A DNA stretch of 64,000 nt from Aggregatibacter kilianii (GTDB taxonomy: Bacteria; Pseudomonadota; Gammaproteobacteria; Enterobacterales; Pasteurellaceae). Each line of letters begins with the position of its first letter. Positions within the stretch are counted from its first letter, which is position 1. Shown one piece after another: positions 21,788 through 29,144 of the stretch. The notes beneath the pieces are model-generated. The model was given only the letters and a program-made list of their open reading frames with translations. It was not told the origin of the DNA and made no database searches. Position numbers and translations under genes: made by a program. The stretch lies in the NCBI RefSeq assembly GCF_003129965.1, contig NZ_NRCJ01000002.1:124001-188000 (forward strand), given 5' to 3'.

Positions 21788-23782
21788 TTAGAAGCTATAT
21801 TTCAAATTCGAGAAATATACACGACCTTCTTCCGGATAGCCTGCTTGATAGTAGTAGTTTTTATCAAATAGGTTGGACACACCGGCTTCTACGGTAAATT
21901 GGTCTGTCACGTTATAGGTGACTTTTGCATTAGTGTTGCTGAAGCCTGAGAGTTTGACGGTGTTGTTACCATCAAGATAATAACGACCATGTTCAGCTTC
22001 TTGGCTGATGTAAAGGGACACATTCGGTACAATTTTCCAATCCGCATAAGCGAAGAATTTGTGTTTCGGCACATCGGTAACAATACGATCGTCCGTTCTA
22101 TTTTTGGCTAAGAGGTAAGTATAGTTTGCCCCGAAGGTGAGGTTATCGGTGGCAAAAATCGCTGCCGCAAGTTCAACGCCTTTGAAAGTTTCTTTGCCGA
22201 CGTTTTGGAATTGATTGGTGCTACGACCAATATTGACTTCATTAATCGCCTCCCTCACTTCGGAATAAAATAGCGCGCCGTCTAATCTTAACCAATCACC
22301 AAATGTCCGCATATAACCGGCTTCATAGTGATAAGCGCTTTCCGGGTTTAAGAATGGATTCGGCGCTTTAGGGCGTCTGCCTAAACCTCGGGAATAACGT
22401 TCTTTCATGGTAGCGAAGCGGGTTTTCTTGGCGAAACCGAGAGTAAATTCGTCCCGTTGATCAAAGCTATGTGACAATTTAATTTGGTAATTAAACGCGT
22501 GTTTATTGCCAATATCAAACGGGCAGATGACATGACGTTGTCCGCTTGAAACACATTGGCCTTCATATTTTTCTGCGCGGTTTGATTGCCGTTTATCGTA
22601 GCTTGCGCCGGCAATCAGCTTCGTTTGGTCGGTGAAACGGTAAGTATTTTCCAAACCGAAGCTGTAAGTGTGGTCTTTATCTACCGCGACCGGATCATTG
22701 TTATCATGTTCGCGATGAACGTCATATTTGATAATCGTGGAAAATTTTACACTGTCTTTTTCCGTTAAATCGCCTCCTAAATCAAAGCCTGCACCATAGG
22801 AATAATCACGGTAATAGCTATTGAAACTTGAATTTCTTCGTTGAGTGCTAAAAGAAGCATCGTCAAAAGCGCGCAAATCGTTTTTGAAAGCGTCATAGAA
22901 CACTTTGGTATTTAAATAAAGGTTATTCGTGCCGAATTCCGTGTGTGATAAGAAATAAATACTGTCTTTATCCCACATCGGCCAGCGCCAATATCTTGCA
23001 AAATTATCTTCACCGGAATAGCGCGGCGATTGTTTTCTGCCTTTTTGCGTAGAAAGCACCAACGCATATTCATCAGTCGTATTCGGTGTGAACGCCACTT
23101 TCAAGCTCAATTTTTTATCCCGTTGTACTGAATTTTCCGCACGACCGCCGTCATCGCCGTTCGGGTTAACTTGACGATAATGACGGGAAAGCTGTAGTCC
23201 TTGCTTTTTAAGGAAGGAGCCGCTTAATTGCGCGTAGAAATAGTCTTGTTTCGTACCCAAGTTAAAATAAGTTTGGTTGGTGGCGGTGTCGCCGCTTCTA
23301 CCGTGGGCAAAACCGTAACCGATAGAACCTTCAAAAGGTTTGGTCGGTTTTTGGGTAATCAGATTTACTGCGCCACCTAAGGTATTGGCGCCGTAGAGAA
23401 CGGAGCTTGCGCCTTTGGAAATATCAATGCGGGATAAATCGAAAGTGGTGAAACGCCCGATGTCCATATTGCCGTCATAAGGTACATACACGGGAATGCC
23501 GTCGATAAAAATCGGCACGCGACGTGAATCAAAACCGCGCACCAACAAATTATATTCATTGCGCGCCCCGCTACGATCTAAAAAGACGCCGGGTGTGGTT
23601 TTGGCTACGTCGGAGACGCGGATTTGGTTGTTTTTTTGCAAATCAGATCGCTCAATACGGGCTGTGCTTAAATCCGTAGATTTCTCGGCAATCACCTCAA
23701 TTTGTCCGAGGGTGAAAACCTCTTCGGCATACGTTGTTGCGCAAGCCATGGCGATGGCGGTGCAAAGCAGTGTTTTTTTCAT
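21788..23782 (-). CDS. TonB-dependent outer-membrane receptor
   Basis: Energy-coupled outer-membrane transporter. A 19-residue signal peptide ends at TYA; the mature end FTLGQIEVIAEK contains a TonB-box-like IEVIA. The plug follows (DVAKTTPGVFLD, LVRGFDSRRVPIFIDG, SSVLYGANTLGGAVNL; about residues 50-170), then a beta barrel ending in aromatic YFSNLKYSF. Two barrel cysteines (QCVSSGQRHVIC) may form a disulfide. It is downstream of, and 12 bases from, a small membrane-protein gene, and divergent from an ABC importer with Mo-box-like sites between. The substrate is not shown by sequence alone; molybdate/tungstate or a complex is inferred from context. Confidence 0.93.
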   Translation of the reverse strand: MKKTLLCTAIAMACATTYAEEVFTLGQIEVIAEKSTDLSTARIERSDLQKNNQIRVSDVAKTTPGVFLDRSGARNEYNLLVRGFDSRRVPIFIDGIPVYVPYDGNMDIGRFTTFDLSRIDISKGASSVLYGANTLGGAVNLITQKPTKPFEGSIGYGFAHGRSGDTATNQTYFNLGTKQDYFYAQLSGSFLKKQGLQLSRHYRQVNPNGDDGGRAENSVQRDKKLSLKVAFTPNTTDEYALVLSTQKGRKQSPRYSGEDNFARYWRWPMWDKDSIYFLSHTEFGTNNLYLNTKVFYDAFKNDLRAFDDASFSTQRRNSSFNSYYRDYSYGAGFDLGGDLTEKDSVKFSTIIKYDVHREHDNNDPVAVDKDHTYSFGLENTYRFTDQTKLIAGASYDKRQSNRAEKYEGQCVSSGQRHVICPFDIGNKHAFNYQIKLSHSFDQRDEFTLGFAKKTRFATMKERYSRGLGRRPKAPNPFLNPESAYHYEAGYMRTFGDWLRLDGALFYSEVREAINEVNIGRSTNQFQNVGKETFKGVELAAAIFATDNLTFGANYTYLLAKNRTDDRIVTDVPKHKFFAYADWKIVPNVSLYISQEAEHGRYYLDGNNTVKLSGFSNTNAKVTYNVTDQFTVEAGVSNLFDKNYYYQAGYPEEGRVYFSNLKYSF

Positions 23783-23794
23783 CTTAATGTCCTT

Positions 23795-24277
23795 TTAAGT
23801 TAATGATAAATGAGAAGTGAAGCGAAGTTGCAGCGCAATGGTGACGGCGGCAAAAATCTTTTCATCATTGTGCGGAAAATTCTCCCGTAAAGTGCAGTGG
23901 AAATTTTTAACGTTTATTTTTCCTTCTGCGAGTTCTTTCAGCAAAGTATCTAAATCGAGATTTAACTGTTCGGCAATTTGTGCGATGGAAAAATGCTCGA
24001 AAGTCATAATCAGCCGGTCCAAATTGCAATAACTCGGGTATTTGTTGTGTCGCACCAAATCGGCGAATTGCGTATTGATTTTCACCAGTTTGTTTTTTCG
24101 ATTAAGAATATGCAGTAATAAAGCGACGACCAACAATACGGCAAAGCTCACATGAATATTAAAGAGCGCCCCCATTTGCCAACCGTAAAACAGTCCCGCG
24201 CCGCTTATCACCACGCACAATAAACTGATAACCAGCGTACACAACAGCAAGAATTTGTAGATCACTTCAAATTTCAT
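23795..24277 (-). CDS. Small inner-membrane protein with a cytoplasmic-looking tail, unknown function
   Basis: 160 residues. Two hydrophobic helices (about 8-32 and 40-58) are followed by a soluble region with a helix-turn-helix-like stretch (IAQIAEQLNLDLDTLLKEL, about 97-115). In the second helix His42 and His56 are 14 residues apart, the spacing of heme-b ligands in cytochrome-b-type helices and similar to DUF4405 proteins; this is a pattern only. First gene of the unit with the TonB receptor, directly next to the Mo-box-like promoter. Function not recognised. Confidence 0.75.
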   Translation of the reverse strand: MKFEVIYKFLLLCTLVISLLCVVISGAGLFYGWQMGALFNIHVSFAVLLVVALLLHILNRKNKLVKINTQFADLVRHNKYPSYCNLDRLIMTFEHFSIAQIAEQLNLDLDTLLKELAEGKINVKNFHCTLRENFPHNDEKIFAAVTIALQLRFTSHLSLT

Positions 24278-24309
24278 GATGCCTCCAACAGAACTTTAGA
24301 AAAATTTAA

Positions 24310-24333
24310 CGATATATATCAAAAGATATAGCA
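24310..24333. promoter_or_regulatory. ModE-like Mo-box 1 in the divergent promoter
   Basis: CGATATATA-N6-GATATAGCA. The left arm fits the ModE arm CGNTATATA completely; the right arm fits TATATANCG at 6 of 8 defined bases. Expected occupant: molybdate-bound ModE repressor, if the genome encodes it. Confidence 0.6.
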
Positions 24334-24354
24334 GAAATATTCTAGCAAATTTTT

Positions 24355-24378
24355 CGTTATATATTCAAAAATACAGAG
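24355..24378. promoter_or_regulatory. ModE-like Mo-box 2 in the divergent promoter
   Basis: CGTTATATA-N6-AATACAGAG. The left arm is a full ModE match and is preceded by T as in the longer consensus; the right arm keeps 5 of 8 bases. A plus-strand -10 TAAAAT at 24387-24392 would place a weak -35 (TTCAAA, 24364-24369) inside this box, the geometry of a repressor site. Confidence 0.55.
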
Positions 24379-24436
24379 TGTTTCGGTAAAATTTAAACCC
24401 ACCGGATTTTATGACCGCACTTTTAAGGACATTTAG

Positions 24437-25438
24437 ATGAAAAAATGGATAATGTTGTTTTTCTTGCTATTCACCGCAAATCTTTGGGCGGAAGAACGTC
24501 CCGTTTTCTTTCTTGCCGGAGAGTTACCGACGCCACAGCGTATCGAAAAAGTGTTAAGCGCAGGTAATCCGAGCGATGTATTGTTGCTGTCTGTTGCACC
24601 GCAAAAAATGGTGGGACTGGCGGGCTTTAACATGGCATCGCAAGGCGGCAAATTATTTCCTGCCGAACAGCAGACCTTGCCGACCATCGGTAAAATCGCC
24701 GGTAAGGGCAGCACGCTTTCCGCCGAAAAAATCGTGGCGTTGCAGCCGAATTTGATTATTGATGCGGGCAATGTGACACCCAATTACATCGACCAAGCCA
24801 AACGCACGTTCGCGCAAACGGGCGTGCCGTATTTATTGTTAGACGGCAGACTTGCCGAAACGCCGAACACGTTGCGTGAACTGGGAAAATTGTTAGGGGA
24901 GGAGAAAACAACGGAAGAACAGGCGCAATATGCGGAAGAAACTCTAAAAAGTGCGGTCGTTTTTGCCGGTGTTTTACAGCCAACCGCGTATTTGGCGCGC
25001 AGCGCCGACGGATTGCAAACAGGACAAAAAGGGTCCATTCATACAGAAGCTATGGAGCTGGTGGGGTTGCGCAATGTGGTGGAAGGGGAGCACAAGGGTT
25101 TAACGCAAGTCTCGATGGAACAGCTTCTGTTGTGGGATCCCGATATTATCCTGACTCAATATGCCGAATTTTTCCAAACCATCAAAGATAATCCGCAGTG
25201 GCAACAATTAAGTGCGGTCAAAAATCAGCGCGTTTTTTTCATTCCGAATCAGCCTTTCGGTTGGCTGGACTCGCCGCCGAGTTTGAATCGCCTGCTTGGC
25301 GTGCGTTGGTTGCAGCATCTGTTAAGCAATAAGCCTATAGCGGATTTTGTGCCGGAAGTGCAACGATTCTATCAATTGTTTTACCACATTGAACTGTCAA
25401 ACGCGCAGGCGGAACAACTGCTGAAACAAGGAAAATAA
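24437..25438 (+). CDS. Periplasmic substrate-binding protein of a FecB/BtuF-type ABC importer
   Basis: A 333-residue exported protein with a signal peptide (cleavage probably after NLWA) and no lipobox. Domain organisation is that of class III (metal-chelate/B12) binding proteins: first lobe with LLLSVAPQKMVGLAGF, ALQPNLIIDAG, then a long helix, then second lobe with LLWDPDIILTQY and FGWLDSPPSLNRLLG. Its stop overlaps the permease start (TAATG), so it is the dedicated partner. It is 159 bases from a divergent receptor operon. Ligand is unproven; molybdate, tungstate or an iron/metal complex are the options. Confidence 0.88.
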   Translation: MKKWIMLFFLLFTANLWAEERPVFFLAGELPTPQRIEKVLSAGNPSDVLLLSVAPQKMVGLAGFNMASQGGKLFPAEQQTLPTIGKIAGKGSTLSAEKIVALQPNLIIDAGNVTPNYIDQAKRTFAQTGVPYLLLDGRLAETPNTLRELGKLLGEEKTTEEQAQYAEETLKSAVVFAGVLQPTAYLARSADGLQTGQKGSIHTEAMELVGLRNVVEGEHKGLTQVSMEQLLLWDPDIILTQYAEFFQTIKDNPQWQQLSAVKNQRVFFIPNQPFGWLDSPPSLNRLLGVRWLQHLLSNKPIADFVPEVQRFYQLFYHIELSNAQAEQLLKQGK

Positions 25439-26451
25439 TGCAACGATTTATCCAGCGTTCCCCACATCTTTTCTTTTTGCTGCTGATTGGATTGTTCATC
25501 AGCAGTATTTTGCTTGCGTTGAACGTCGGCAAATTTCCCGTTTCACCCGGGCAATTATGGCAAACGATCACCTGTTCGTTGGATTCCCAATGTCATGCGG
25601 ATTCGCCGATTCATACCGTATTGTGGCAAATCCGCTCTCCGCGTATTATCGTGGCGTGTTTGGTTGGTGCGGCGTTGGCTTGTGCGGGCGCGACGTATCA
25701 AGGTATGTTTAAAAACCCGCTGGTGTCGCCGGATATTTTGGGCGTATCCGCCGGCGCGGGATTTGGCGCATCGCTGGCGATTTTTTACAATTTGCCGATG
25801 TTTTATATTCAGCTTTTTGCCTTTCTCGGCGGTATTTTTGCGGTGTTTTGCGTTTCTCTCATCGCCACCCGCAGCAAAGATCAAGACCCGATTTTAGTGC
25901 TCGTCCTTGCGGGCATTGCCATCGGCTCCTTACTTGGCGCCGGTATTTCTTTGCTGAAAATCCTCGCGGATCCCTTCACCCAACTGCCTTCCATTACCTT
26001 TTGGCTATTGGGCAGTTTAACCGCCATCAGTCCGCAGGATGTATTGCAACTGGCGCCGATTTTAATTCTCGGCATGGCACCGTTATTTTTACTGCGCTGG
26101 CGATTAAATTTGCTTTCTTTGGAGGAAGAAGAAGCCCGCAGTTTGGGCGTGCCGATTAAAGCCACCCGTTACATTTTGATTATTTTCACCACCATTTGCA
26201 CAGCAAGTGCGGTCTCCGTGACGGGCATTATCGGCTGGGTCGGTTTACTGGTGCCGCACATCGCCCGTTTATTGGTGGGCGCGAATTTCATTTTGCTATT
26301 GCCGACCTCCTTGTTACTCGGCGCAAGTTTCTTACTCTTAACGGACACTTTAGCGCGCACCGTCGCCCACATCGAATTGCCACTCGGCATTCTCACCTCC
26401 GCCTGCGGTGCGCCGTTCTTCCTTTACTTATTATTGCGGGGCAGACAATGA
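25438..26451 (+). CDS. molB: FecCD-family ABC importer permease
   Basis: Ten-helix BtuC/FecCD-type permease of 337 residues. Family motifs: LWQIRSPRIIVACLVGAALACAGA (split: RSPRIIVA and GAALACAGATYQG), NPLVSPDILGVSAGAGFGA and GIIGWVGLLVPHIAR. It is translationally coupled to the binding protein upstream and the ATPase downstream (ATGA overlap). Similar overall to the H. influenzae MolB (HI1471) group; that assignment, and the gene symbol, rest on family resemblance plus the Mo context. Confidence 0.85.
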   Translation: MQRFIQRSPHLFFLLLIGLFISSILLALNVGKFPVSPGQLWQTITCSLDSQCHADSPIHTVLWQIRSPRIIVACLVGAALACAGATYQGMFKNPLVSPDILGVSAGAGFGASLAIFYNLPMFYIQLFAFLGGIFAVFCVSLIATRSKDQDPILVLVLAGIAIGSLLGAGISLLKILADPFTQLPSITFWLLGSLTAISPQDVLQLAPILILGMAPLFLLRWRLNLLSLEEEEARSLGVPIKATRYILIIFTTICTASAVSVTGIIGWVGLLVPHIARLLVGANFILLLPTSLLLGASFLLLTDTLARTVAHIELPLGILTSACGAPFFLYLLLRGRQ

Positions 26452-27197
26452 AGTTAATGGAAACCCGTGAGTTAGCCATCGGTTACGGCGATAACATTTT
26501 AGTTAACCGCATCAACTTTTCTTTACAGGAAAAGCAAATTTGTTGCCTGCTGGGCGCAAACGGCGCGGGAAAAAGTACGTTTCTAAAAACCTTACTCGGT
26601 TTACAGCCGCCGTTAATGGGCGGCGTGTATTGGCGACAACAGCCGCTTTCGACTTACAGCCAAGGGGAATTGGCTCGTAATATCGCCTATGTGCCGCAGG
26701 CACACCAACATTTGTTTCCGTTTTTGGTGCAGGACATGGTGCTGATGGGGCGTTCGGCGTTTTTGAAGTGGTATCAAACACCGAAAGCGGAAGACAAAGA
26801 ACTGGCACTGTCCGCCCTTGCCGAACTGCAAATCGAGCATCTCGCCAAGCGGTATTATCATCAGTTGAGCGGGGGAGAGAAGCAACTGGTGCTCATCGCC
26901 CGCGCCATTGCGCAGCAGGCAAAGTTACTGGTGATGGATGAGCCGACGGCGAGCCTGGATTTCGGCAATCAAATTCGCGTGCTGGAAAAAATCAAACAAT
27001 TACAAGCGCAAAATTTGGCTTTACTGATCACCACCCACAACCCGCAACAAGCTTTGTACTTAGCGGAAAATATCTTATTGCTCGATCAGGAATACGGCTT
27101 TCAACAAGGCTCAAGGGAAGAACTCTTAACCTTAGAAAACTTGGCGAAAATCTACCGCACTTCAACGGAGCAGTTAAAAGAACATTTGCTTTTCTAA
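26448..27197 (+). CDS. molC: ABC importer ATPase, metal-chelate type
   Basis: 249-residue nucleotide-binding subunit. Walker A GANGAGKST (about residues 37-45), Q-loop in YVPQAHQ, signature LSGGEKQ, Walker B LLVMDEPTAS and the switch His in ITTHNPQ are intact. The start ATG overlaps the permease stop. It completes a one-permease, one-ATPase importer, with homodimers expected. The symbol is used by analogy with H. influenzae MolC (HI1470). Confidence 0.85.
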   Translation: MKLMETRELAIGYGDNILVNRINFSLQEKQICCLLGANGAGKSTFLKTLLGLQPPLMGGVYWRQQPLSTYSQGELARNIAYVPQAHQHLFPFLVQDMVLMGRSAFLKWYQTPKAEDKELALSALAELQIEHLAKRYYHQLSGGEKQLVLIARAIAQQAKLLVMDEPTASLDFGNQIRVLEKIKQLQAQNLALLITTHNPQQALYLAENILLLDQEYGFQQGSREELLTLENLAKIYRTSTEQLKEHLLF

Positions 27198-27877: not shown

Positions 27878-28912
27878 CTACTTAATAGGTGGAAGCCCTT
27901 TTAAAATCTGCTGAACGTTCTCTCTGGTAAGGCTGTAATTATAATATCTTTGGTAAAAATCCTGTATTTTTGTCACCATATCCAAGTCAGCGAAGCGTTC
28001 AGGGTGGAATAATTGTGCAGCCCAGAGAATTTGTAAAGCTTCTTCCACGCTGTAACGATCCCAAGGGAACGTGCCTGTCGGGTTGGCATAAATACGATTA
28101 TTTCTCACGGCACGGATGGATTGCCAATTTGGATCCGCTTTGATTTTCTCAATGGCAGCTTGAGCCCGATTGCCGCTACTGCCGATAATAATCACGTCAG
28201 GATTCGCTTGCACAATCGATTCCATGGTGACAGCCACCATATTGGCTTCATCCGGAAACGCACTTTTGCCACCGGCCATACGAATCCATTCGCCGATCAT
28301 GGAATTACCGCCGTCAATTTTCAGTAAATCGGCACCGCCGGTAATGTGTAGCACAGTCGGTTTTTGTGAATCTTTCACGTCTTTAATACGTGAGTGCACA
28401 AAGTTGATATTATTATTTAATTCTCTAATATACTTTTTCGCTACTCCGGGTGCCTTCCCGCCCATTACCTCCGATGTAATCCGCACAGCTTTCTTTAGTC
28501 CGTCGAAGTCTTGAAAGTTTACTCGCACGCCTTTTAGACCTGCCTGATTAACTTTATTTAACATGGATTTTTTAGAAACGAGTACAACATCAGGGTTTTG
28601 TGCCAATAATTTCTCAATTAGAACCGTTTCGTCTCCGGTTAATACCGGCACGTTTTTTCCTTCCGGATAAACCTCGTTGTGCCAAGGTGTTGTTTTAGCT
28701 AAGGGAGTAGTTATTACCAGTTTATCGGCACCACCTAAAAGCAATACGATTTGGTTATTGTCTTGTTGAAGATCGGCAATGCGCTCAACGCGGTCAGGGA
28801 TGTCCACTTTGTTACCGTCCGTATCGGTAATAATTTTGGCTTGTGCGGAAAATGCTAATAGCGTAACGGCAAAAAGTGCGGTCGGTTTTAATGTTATTTT
28901 TTTCATCGTCAT
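27878..28912 (-). CDS. molA: MolA-like periplasmic metal-oxyanion binding protein
   Basis: 344-residue class III binding protein. The signal peptide MTMKKITLKPTALFA.. ends near SAQA; the start at 28912 has AGGAGG 5 bases upstream. Motifs: TDTDGNKVDIPDRVERIADL, LLLGGADKL, HITGGADLLKIDGGNSMIGE, and FPWDRYSVEEALQILWAAQL. These resemble H. influenzae MolA (HI1472), which binds molybdate and tungstate; this is from memory of the family. It has no adjacent permease on its strand, so it would have to share MolBC-like proteins at 25438-27197. A USS lies in the signal peptide region. Confidence 0.75.
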   Translation of the reverse strand: MTMKKITLKPTALFAVTLLAFSAQAKIITDTDGNKVDIPDRVERIADLQQDNNQIVLLLGGADKLVITTPLAKTTPWHNEVYPEGKNVPVLTGDETVLIEKLLAQNPDVVLVSKKSMLNKVNQAGLKGVRVNFQDFDGLKKAVRITSEVMGGKAPGVAKKYIRELNNNINFVHSRIKDVKDSQKPTVLHITGGADLLKIDGGNSMIGEWIRMAGGKSAFPDEANMVAVTMESIVQANPDVIIIGSSGNRAQAAIEKIKADPNWQSIRAVRNNRIYANPTGTFPWDRYSVEEALQILWAAQLFHPERFADLDMVTKIQDFYQRYYNYSLTRENVQQILKGLPPIK

Positions 28913-28944
28913 AAGTACCTCCTTAAAAATGTCTAATAGTGCAA

Positions 28945-28972
28945 ATTTTACGTTGTAATTCAGGCACGTCAA
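28945..28972 (-). promoter_or_regulatory. Promoter of the MolA-like gene
   Basis: On the minus strand, -35 TTGACG (28972-28967), a 16-base spacer, -10 TAAAAT (28950-28945). No Mo-box half-site is seen near it. Confidence 0.6.
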
Positions 28973-29144
28973 TAAACATAAATCCATTTAGCAAATTTCT
29001 TGCAGCTTAATGTTAATAGTTAAATAGAGTTAATGGATTTTTATACATTATTTTTATCTTGCTATCTTTAAATCGTATGTTCGGATACTAATTAAGCTCT
29101 ATTTATTTGATAAAAGTGCGGTCATATTTCTAAGTGTTTTACAC

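Follow-up and report, generated by a model that had tools for sequence, protein, structure and literature searches.

ModE is the cytoplasmic sensor of molybdate and tungstate, and moaA is one of its known targets in E. coli. The E. coli consensus is the inverted repeat ATCGNTATATA-N6-TATATANCGAT (PMC545781). In Haemophilus influenzae, the MolBC-A system (HI1470-HI1472) is a low-affinity molybdate importer, and molybdate represses molB 10-fold, the repressing factor having been left open (PMC4031551). The locus described here lies in a window of 64,000 nucleotides of Aggregatibacter kilianii DNA, by which is meant the whole stretch that was analysed. It resembles the E. coli ModE regulon in its inverted repeat, in the full-length ModE of the same genome, in a box at moaA and in a putative operator placed over transporter promoter elements. 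It differs in that its predicted targets include a TonB-dependent receptor with a 160-residue partner and FecCD-type importers and, at one of its two boxes, in scoring best with a spacer of 8 rather than the N6 of the consensus. Like MolBC-A, the importer has a FecCD-type permease, an ATPase and a binding protein, 2nq2 being the nearest solved permease; unlike MolBC-A, it is not an orthologue (about 43% permease identity) and it is divergent from a TonB receptor operon. The receptor, finally, shares its Plug and beta-barrel architecture with FepA, CirA and BtuB but, unlike them, falls under no equivalog model, and control by ModE, not by Fur or a riboswitch, is suggested for it.

We consider it probable (approximately 0.85) that both boxes are ModE operators, that the divergent receptor and importer operons are subject to molybdate-dependent repression, and that together they constitute an uptake route for molybdenum or tungsten. 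The features of the locus are as follows.

21788-23782, minus strand: TonB-dependent outer-membrane receptor (Plug and beta-barrel domains), predicted molybdate/tungstate (or chelate) receptor
23795-24277, minus strand: P160, a 160-aa membrane protein, first gene of the leftward operon
24278-24436: divergent gap between the back-to-back genes, 159 bases, 70% AT
24310-24333: ModE-like box 1, 9-6-9, 15.3 bits, matrix rank 1 in the window
24339-24368, minus strand: predicted leftward promoter, -35 TTGAAT (24368-24363), 18-bp spacer, extended -10 TAGAAT (24344-24339)
24355-24380: ModE-like box 2, 9-8-9 register, 15.2 bits, matrix rank 2 in the window
24364-24392, plus strand: predicted importer promoter, -35 TTCAAA (24364-24369), 17-bp spacer, -10 TAAAAT (24387-24392)
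24437-25438, plus strand: periplasmic binding protein of the FecCD-type importer (Peripla_BP_2)
25438-26451, plus strand: FecCD-family permease, nearest solved structure MolB HI1471 (2nq2, E 1.2e-64)
26448-27197, plus strand: ATP-binding subunit of the importer (domain match)

The two boxes and their score

The left arms are CGATATATA from 24310 and CGTTATATA from 24355. The first-pass annotation had described two such arms on one strand, 45 bases apart from start to start within the 159-base gap, with right arms agreeing at 6 of 8 (box 1) and 5 of 8 (box 2) positions; the positions are confirmed, and the same counts are obtained against TATATANCG. The right arm of box 1 is GATATAGCA, which fits a spacer of 6, and that of box 2 can be read as AATACAGAG (spacer 6) or TACAGAGTG (spacer 8), the latter register being best here and a spacer of 6 being favoured in some congeners. 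The right arms of this strain are degenerate, and several congeners have stronger ones: at box 2, for instance, these read TATATAGTG or TATATAGCG, the fuller form being TATATAG(T/C)G.

A scan with a ModE weight matrix had been proposed in that annotation. The matrix used here was trained independently: modA promoters were drawn from other genera, the site in each that best fitted the consensus of PMC545781 was picked, 13 with at least 12/16 positions agreeing were kept, and a symmetric half-site matrix (spacers 6-8, maximum possible score 29.4) was derived. The window offers 191,928 combinations of position and spacer; the boxes come first and second among them, and the next best site reaches 12.1 bits. 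When the gap was dinucleotide-shuffled 5,000 times, 23 shuffles contained one site as good and none contained two. The inverted repeat CGNTATATA-N6 to 8-TATATANCG thus stands above background by both matrix and shuffles.

Conservation points the same way. Both boxes persist in seven congeners (eight including this genome) while the surrounding bases change, and the -10 stretch GTA(A/G)AATT of the importer promoter is kept in all eight. The reading of the sites as ModE boxes, which had been made from the letters alone, is accordingly upheld by the matrix, by the full-length ModE of the genome and by the conservation of the boxes in orthologous promoters.

ModE and other ModE-like boxes in the genome

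The genome encodes a cognate ModE. A single protein exceeds the curated cut-off; its gene adjoins modA, it has HTH and TOBE domains (the HTH match scoring 25.5 bits, where the cut-off is 26.6) and it matches E. coli ModE over the full length (E 3e-64). As a positive control, the box upstream of moaA in the same genome scores 19.1 bits, and a second MolB-like operon has an upstream box of 18.9 bits. It may be noted separately that queE-like and NIF3-like genes flank a further ModE-like box, of 19.4 bits (L240:1501-1524; G000:C11:106627), with no evident link to molybdenum.

The two operons

P160 is predicted to have, at its N-terminus, a membrane hairpin of two helices, in which His42 and His56 are invariant, and after it a small helical domain (model pLDDT 83). 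No Pfam model matches it above the cut-off, the matches to DUF4405 and cytochrome b561 being weak, and a fold search with it gave no match. Its orthologues are 30-79% identical, and the receptor gene nearly always adjoins, with P160 in front. The receptor is of the TonB-dependent type with Plug and beta-barrel domains; against NCBIfam, no equivalog reaches its cut-off, and the siderophore and vitamin B12 receptor models match below threshold.

The rightward operon combines a FecCD permease, a BtuF-like binding protein and an ATPase, as in MolBC-A. The likeness of the permease to others of the MolB type is only about 43-44%. The model of the binding protein retrieves 4pag first and the molybdate-binding MolA (3psa) as the second distinct entry, the identity to MolA being approximately 20%. 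The operon is not orthologous to HI1470-HI1472, as the orthologues of HI1471 are other genes, found in ten other genomes and in no Aggregatibacter. The gene at G000:C22:192435 (L062) was considered as an HI1471 orthologue and rejected: it belongs to a separate MolB-like operon, and the true orthologues are in other genera. A second binding protein encoded in the window (27878-28987), with no permease gene beside it, is 74% identical to that of the same MolB-like operon (G000:C22:192435-195249). A plasmid comparison gave no match.

The HI1471-type operons themselves also appear to be preceded by ModE boxes. In ten genomes (H. influenzae not being among those identified) there are permeases 52-95% identical to HI1471, and the best-scoring box of each locus, at 9.7-22.7 bits, is directly upstream of molA. 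MolBC-A is repressed by molybdate, and a ModE-like box precedes molA in the HI1471-type operons of other Pasteurellaceae, just as one precedes the first gene of the importer described here. ModE is therefore a natural candidate for the factor that represses molABC in H. influenzae. The gene that follows the HI1471-type operon has a product that begins like ModA (SAGSFR.AL; L252, L254, L255, L256 and L260, near 3250).

Promoters and operator assignment

The -35 elements of the two divergent promoters, as predicted, overlap. Box 2 overlaps both of them; the claim that it covers the probable -35 of the importer holds for the predicted TTCAAA at 24364-24369. Box 1 lies across the position at which leftward transcription is predicted to start. 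Five of the eight congeners have the boxes 44-45 bp apart and the other three 58 bp apart; other genera that share this layout show 47-60 bp. In genomes with the two operons at separate places, each is accompanied by its own box: in Cricetibacter, the receptor box scores 25.7 and the importer box 23.6; in Glaesserella, the boxes score 15.1 (receptor), 21.2 (importer) and 24.3 (second MolB-like operon). It is because of this arrangement that we regard box 1 as serving the receptor operon and box 2 as serving the importer. On this sequence evidence, the two boxes are independent operators, one for each divergent operon, a conclusion that goes beyond the first-pass annotation.

The boxes, their conservation, their assignment to one operon each, the ModE gene and the overlap with the predicted promoters are all read from the DNA. 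Beyond these, we infer binding by ModE, repression, and molybdenum or tungsten as the substrate of both operons. The position of the boxes over promoter elements suggests that repression would be by occlusion. With ample molybdate, ModE-molybdate would sit on box 2, across the two -35 elements, and on box 1, across the point at which the leftward transcript begins, and would block RNA polymerase; under molybdate shortage, the two operons would be switched on. The products would then form a route across the envelope by which molybdate or tungstate, probably in chelated form, passes from the TonB receptor via the periplasmic binding protein to the ABC importer.

The receptor family beyond this genome

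The receptor occurs in 26 of 140 Pasteurellaceae genomes, representing 12 genera. Of these 26, 25 have a box ahead of the receptor operon (scores 12.4-25.7), and in the 26th the contig ends at this point; the box is still present in several of the 12 genera in which the importer is absent beside the receptor operon. ModE exceeds the cut-off in all 26 receptor genomes, as opposed to 104 of the 140 overall, these counts ignoring kinship. When the 700 bp upstream of 30 Plug-domain loci in near genomes were scored, the values were 12.4-18.3 for three members of the receptor family, 15.4-22.2 for four FepA-family receptors next to the mol cluster, and at most 10.4 for the 23 other TonB receptors.

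A scan of named genomes revealed relatives of the receptor in Burkholderiales, Methylococcales, Desulfuromonas, Campylobacter and many Bacteroidota. A box of at least 15 bits lies upstream of 29 of the 64 relatives outside the Pasteurellaceae, compared with 6 of 1,185 random windows, and four Pandoraea relatives have boxes of 24-29 bits. A ModE homologue is encoded within 5 kb of 23 of the 64. Many of the 35 relatives that have no box of at least 15 bits have a homologue of ModE, ModA or the importer in their vicinity. The receptor of the leftward operon therefore has the appearance of being regulated by ModE in many lineages, which the first-pass annotation had not proposed.

Two further observations concern these receptor genes. 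In six of the 26 genomes, a deletion, stops or a frameshift has disrupted the receptor gene, the upstream box being retained (L066 9120-9906, L067 3105-4342, L081, L084, L096 and L100). Congeners in Aggregatibacter also encode, in the interval from the importer to the second MolB-like operon, a TonB receptor of the FepA family (828 bits against a cut-off of 493; L066:3166-5571, L067:7907-10303 and L068); it has its own ModE-like box of 15.4-22.2 bits, approximately 67-93 bp upstream, and the gene is disrupted in L067.

Alternative explanations

As the TA-rich -10 and -35 regions of an AT-rich promoter may look like ModE half-sites, the boxes might be the product of chance. The left arm CGNTATATA by itself is not significant in the window (four occurrences against 1.4 expected, with 8 of 100 shuffles reaching four), and a genome-wide search for the consensus with three mismatches gave 12 sites, compared with 16 for the reversed control pattern, without enrichment; consensus matching alone thus does not discriminate. 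The first two ranks in the matrix scan, the shuffles, the conservation, the control receptors and the relatives in other lineages nevertheless make chance very improbable. We give still less credence to an operator of FNR, Fur or CRP: an FNR-like match of 8/10, ACGATATATATCAA, is present at box 1 in this strain but is not kept by the congeners, and the best matches to Fur (12/19) and CRP (8/10) compare with 14/16 for ModE in all eight congeners. The occurrence of two sites in the same orientation, 45 bp apart in a single gap, could also indicate a tandem operator at which two ModE dimers are obliged to bind cooperatively, adjacent and at a fixed phase. This is not supported, because the spacing varies from 44 to 60 bp across species, and a single box is found at each operon where the operons are separated; we regard such an arrangement as decidedly improbable.

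A different question is whether the boxes might be true ModE operators and the cargo an iron-siderophore or some other ligand, with ModE merely cross-regulating. TonB receptors that work with FecCD importers usually carry iron-siderophores, haem or vitamin B12; the receptor has its sub-threshold likeness to siderophore and B12 receptor models, and the FepA-family receptor beside the cluster in congeners is boxed too. Against this, no Fur-like site is present in the gap (best match 10-12/19 in congeners), the linkage to ModE extends to other phyla, often with ModE or ModA nearby, and boxes precede the HI1471-type relatives, a type shown to transport molybdate in H. influenzae. An iron or other ligand is, on balance, unlikely. 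Molybdate or tungstate is the substrate suggested by the regulation, the gene company and distant homology.

Implications

We are inclined to believe that the receptors form a ModE-controlled TonB-dependent family, spread over Proteobacteria and Bacteroidota, through which molybdate or tungstate, probably chelated, would be taken up across the outer membrane in an energised manner and passed to FecCD-type or ModABC importers; the apparent co-control of the Aggregatibacter FepA-family receptor hints at catecholate-bound molybdate. No description of TonB-dependent uptake in connection with molybdate or ModE was found in the open-access literature, and an earlier prediction is possible. For the Pasteurellaceae, the boxes before the HI1471-type operons provide a testable candidate for the repressor question of PMC4031551. 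If the reading is true, a TonB receptor family regulated by ModE would mean that molybdenum or tungsten oxyanions, or their chelates, are actively taken up across the outer membrane.
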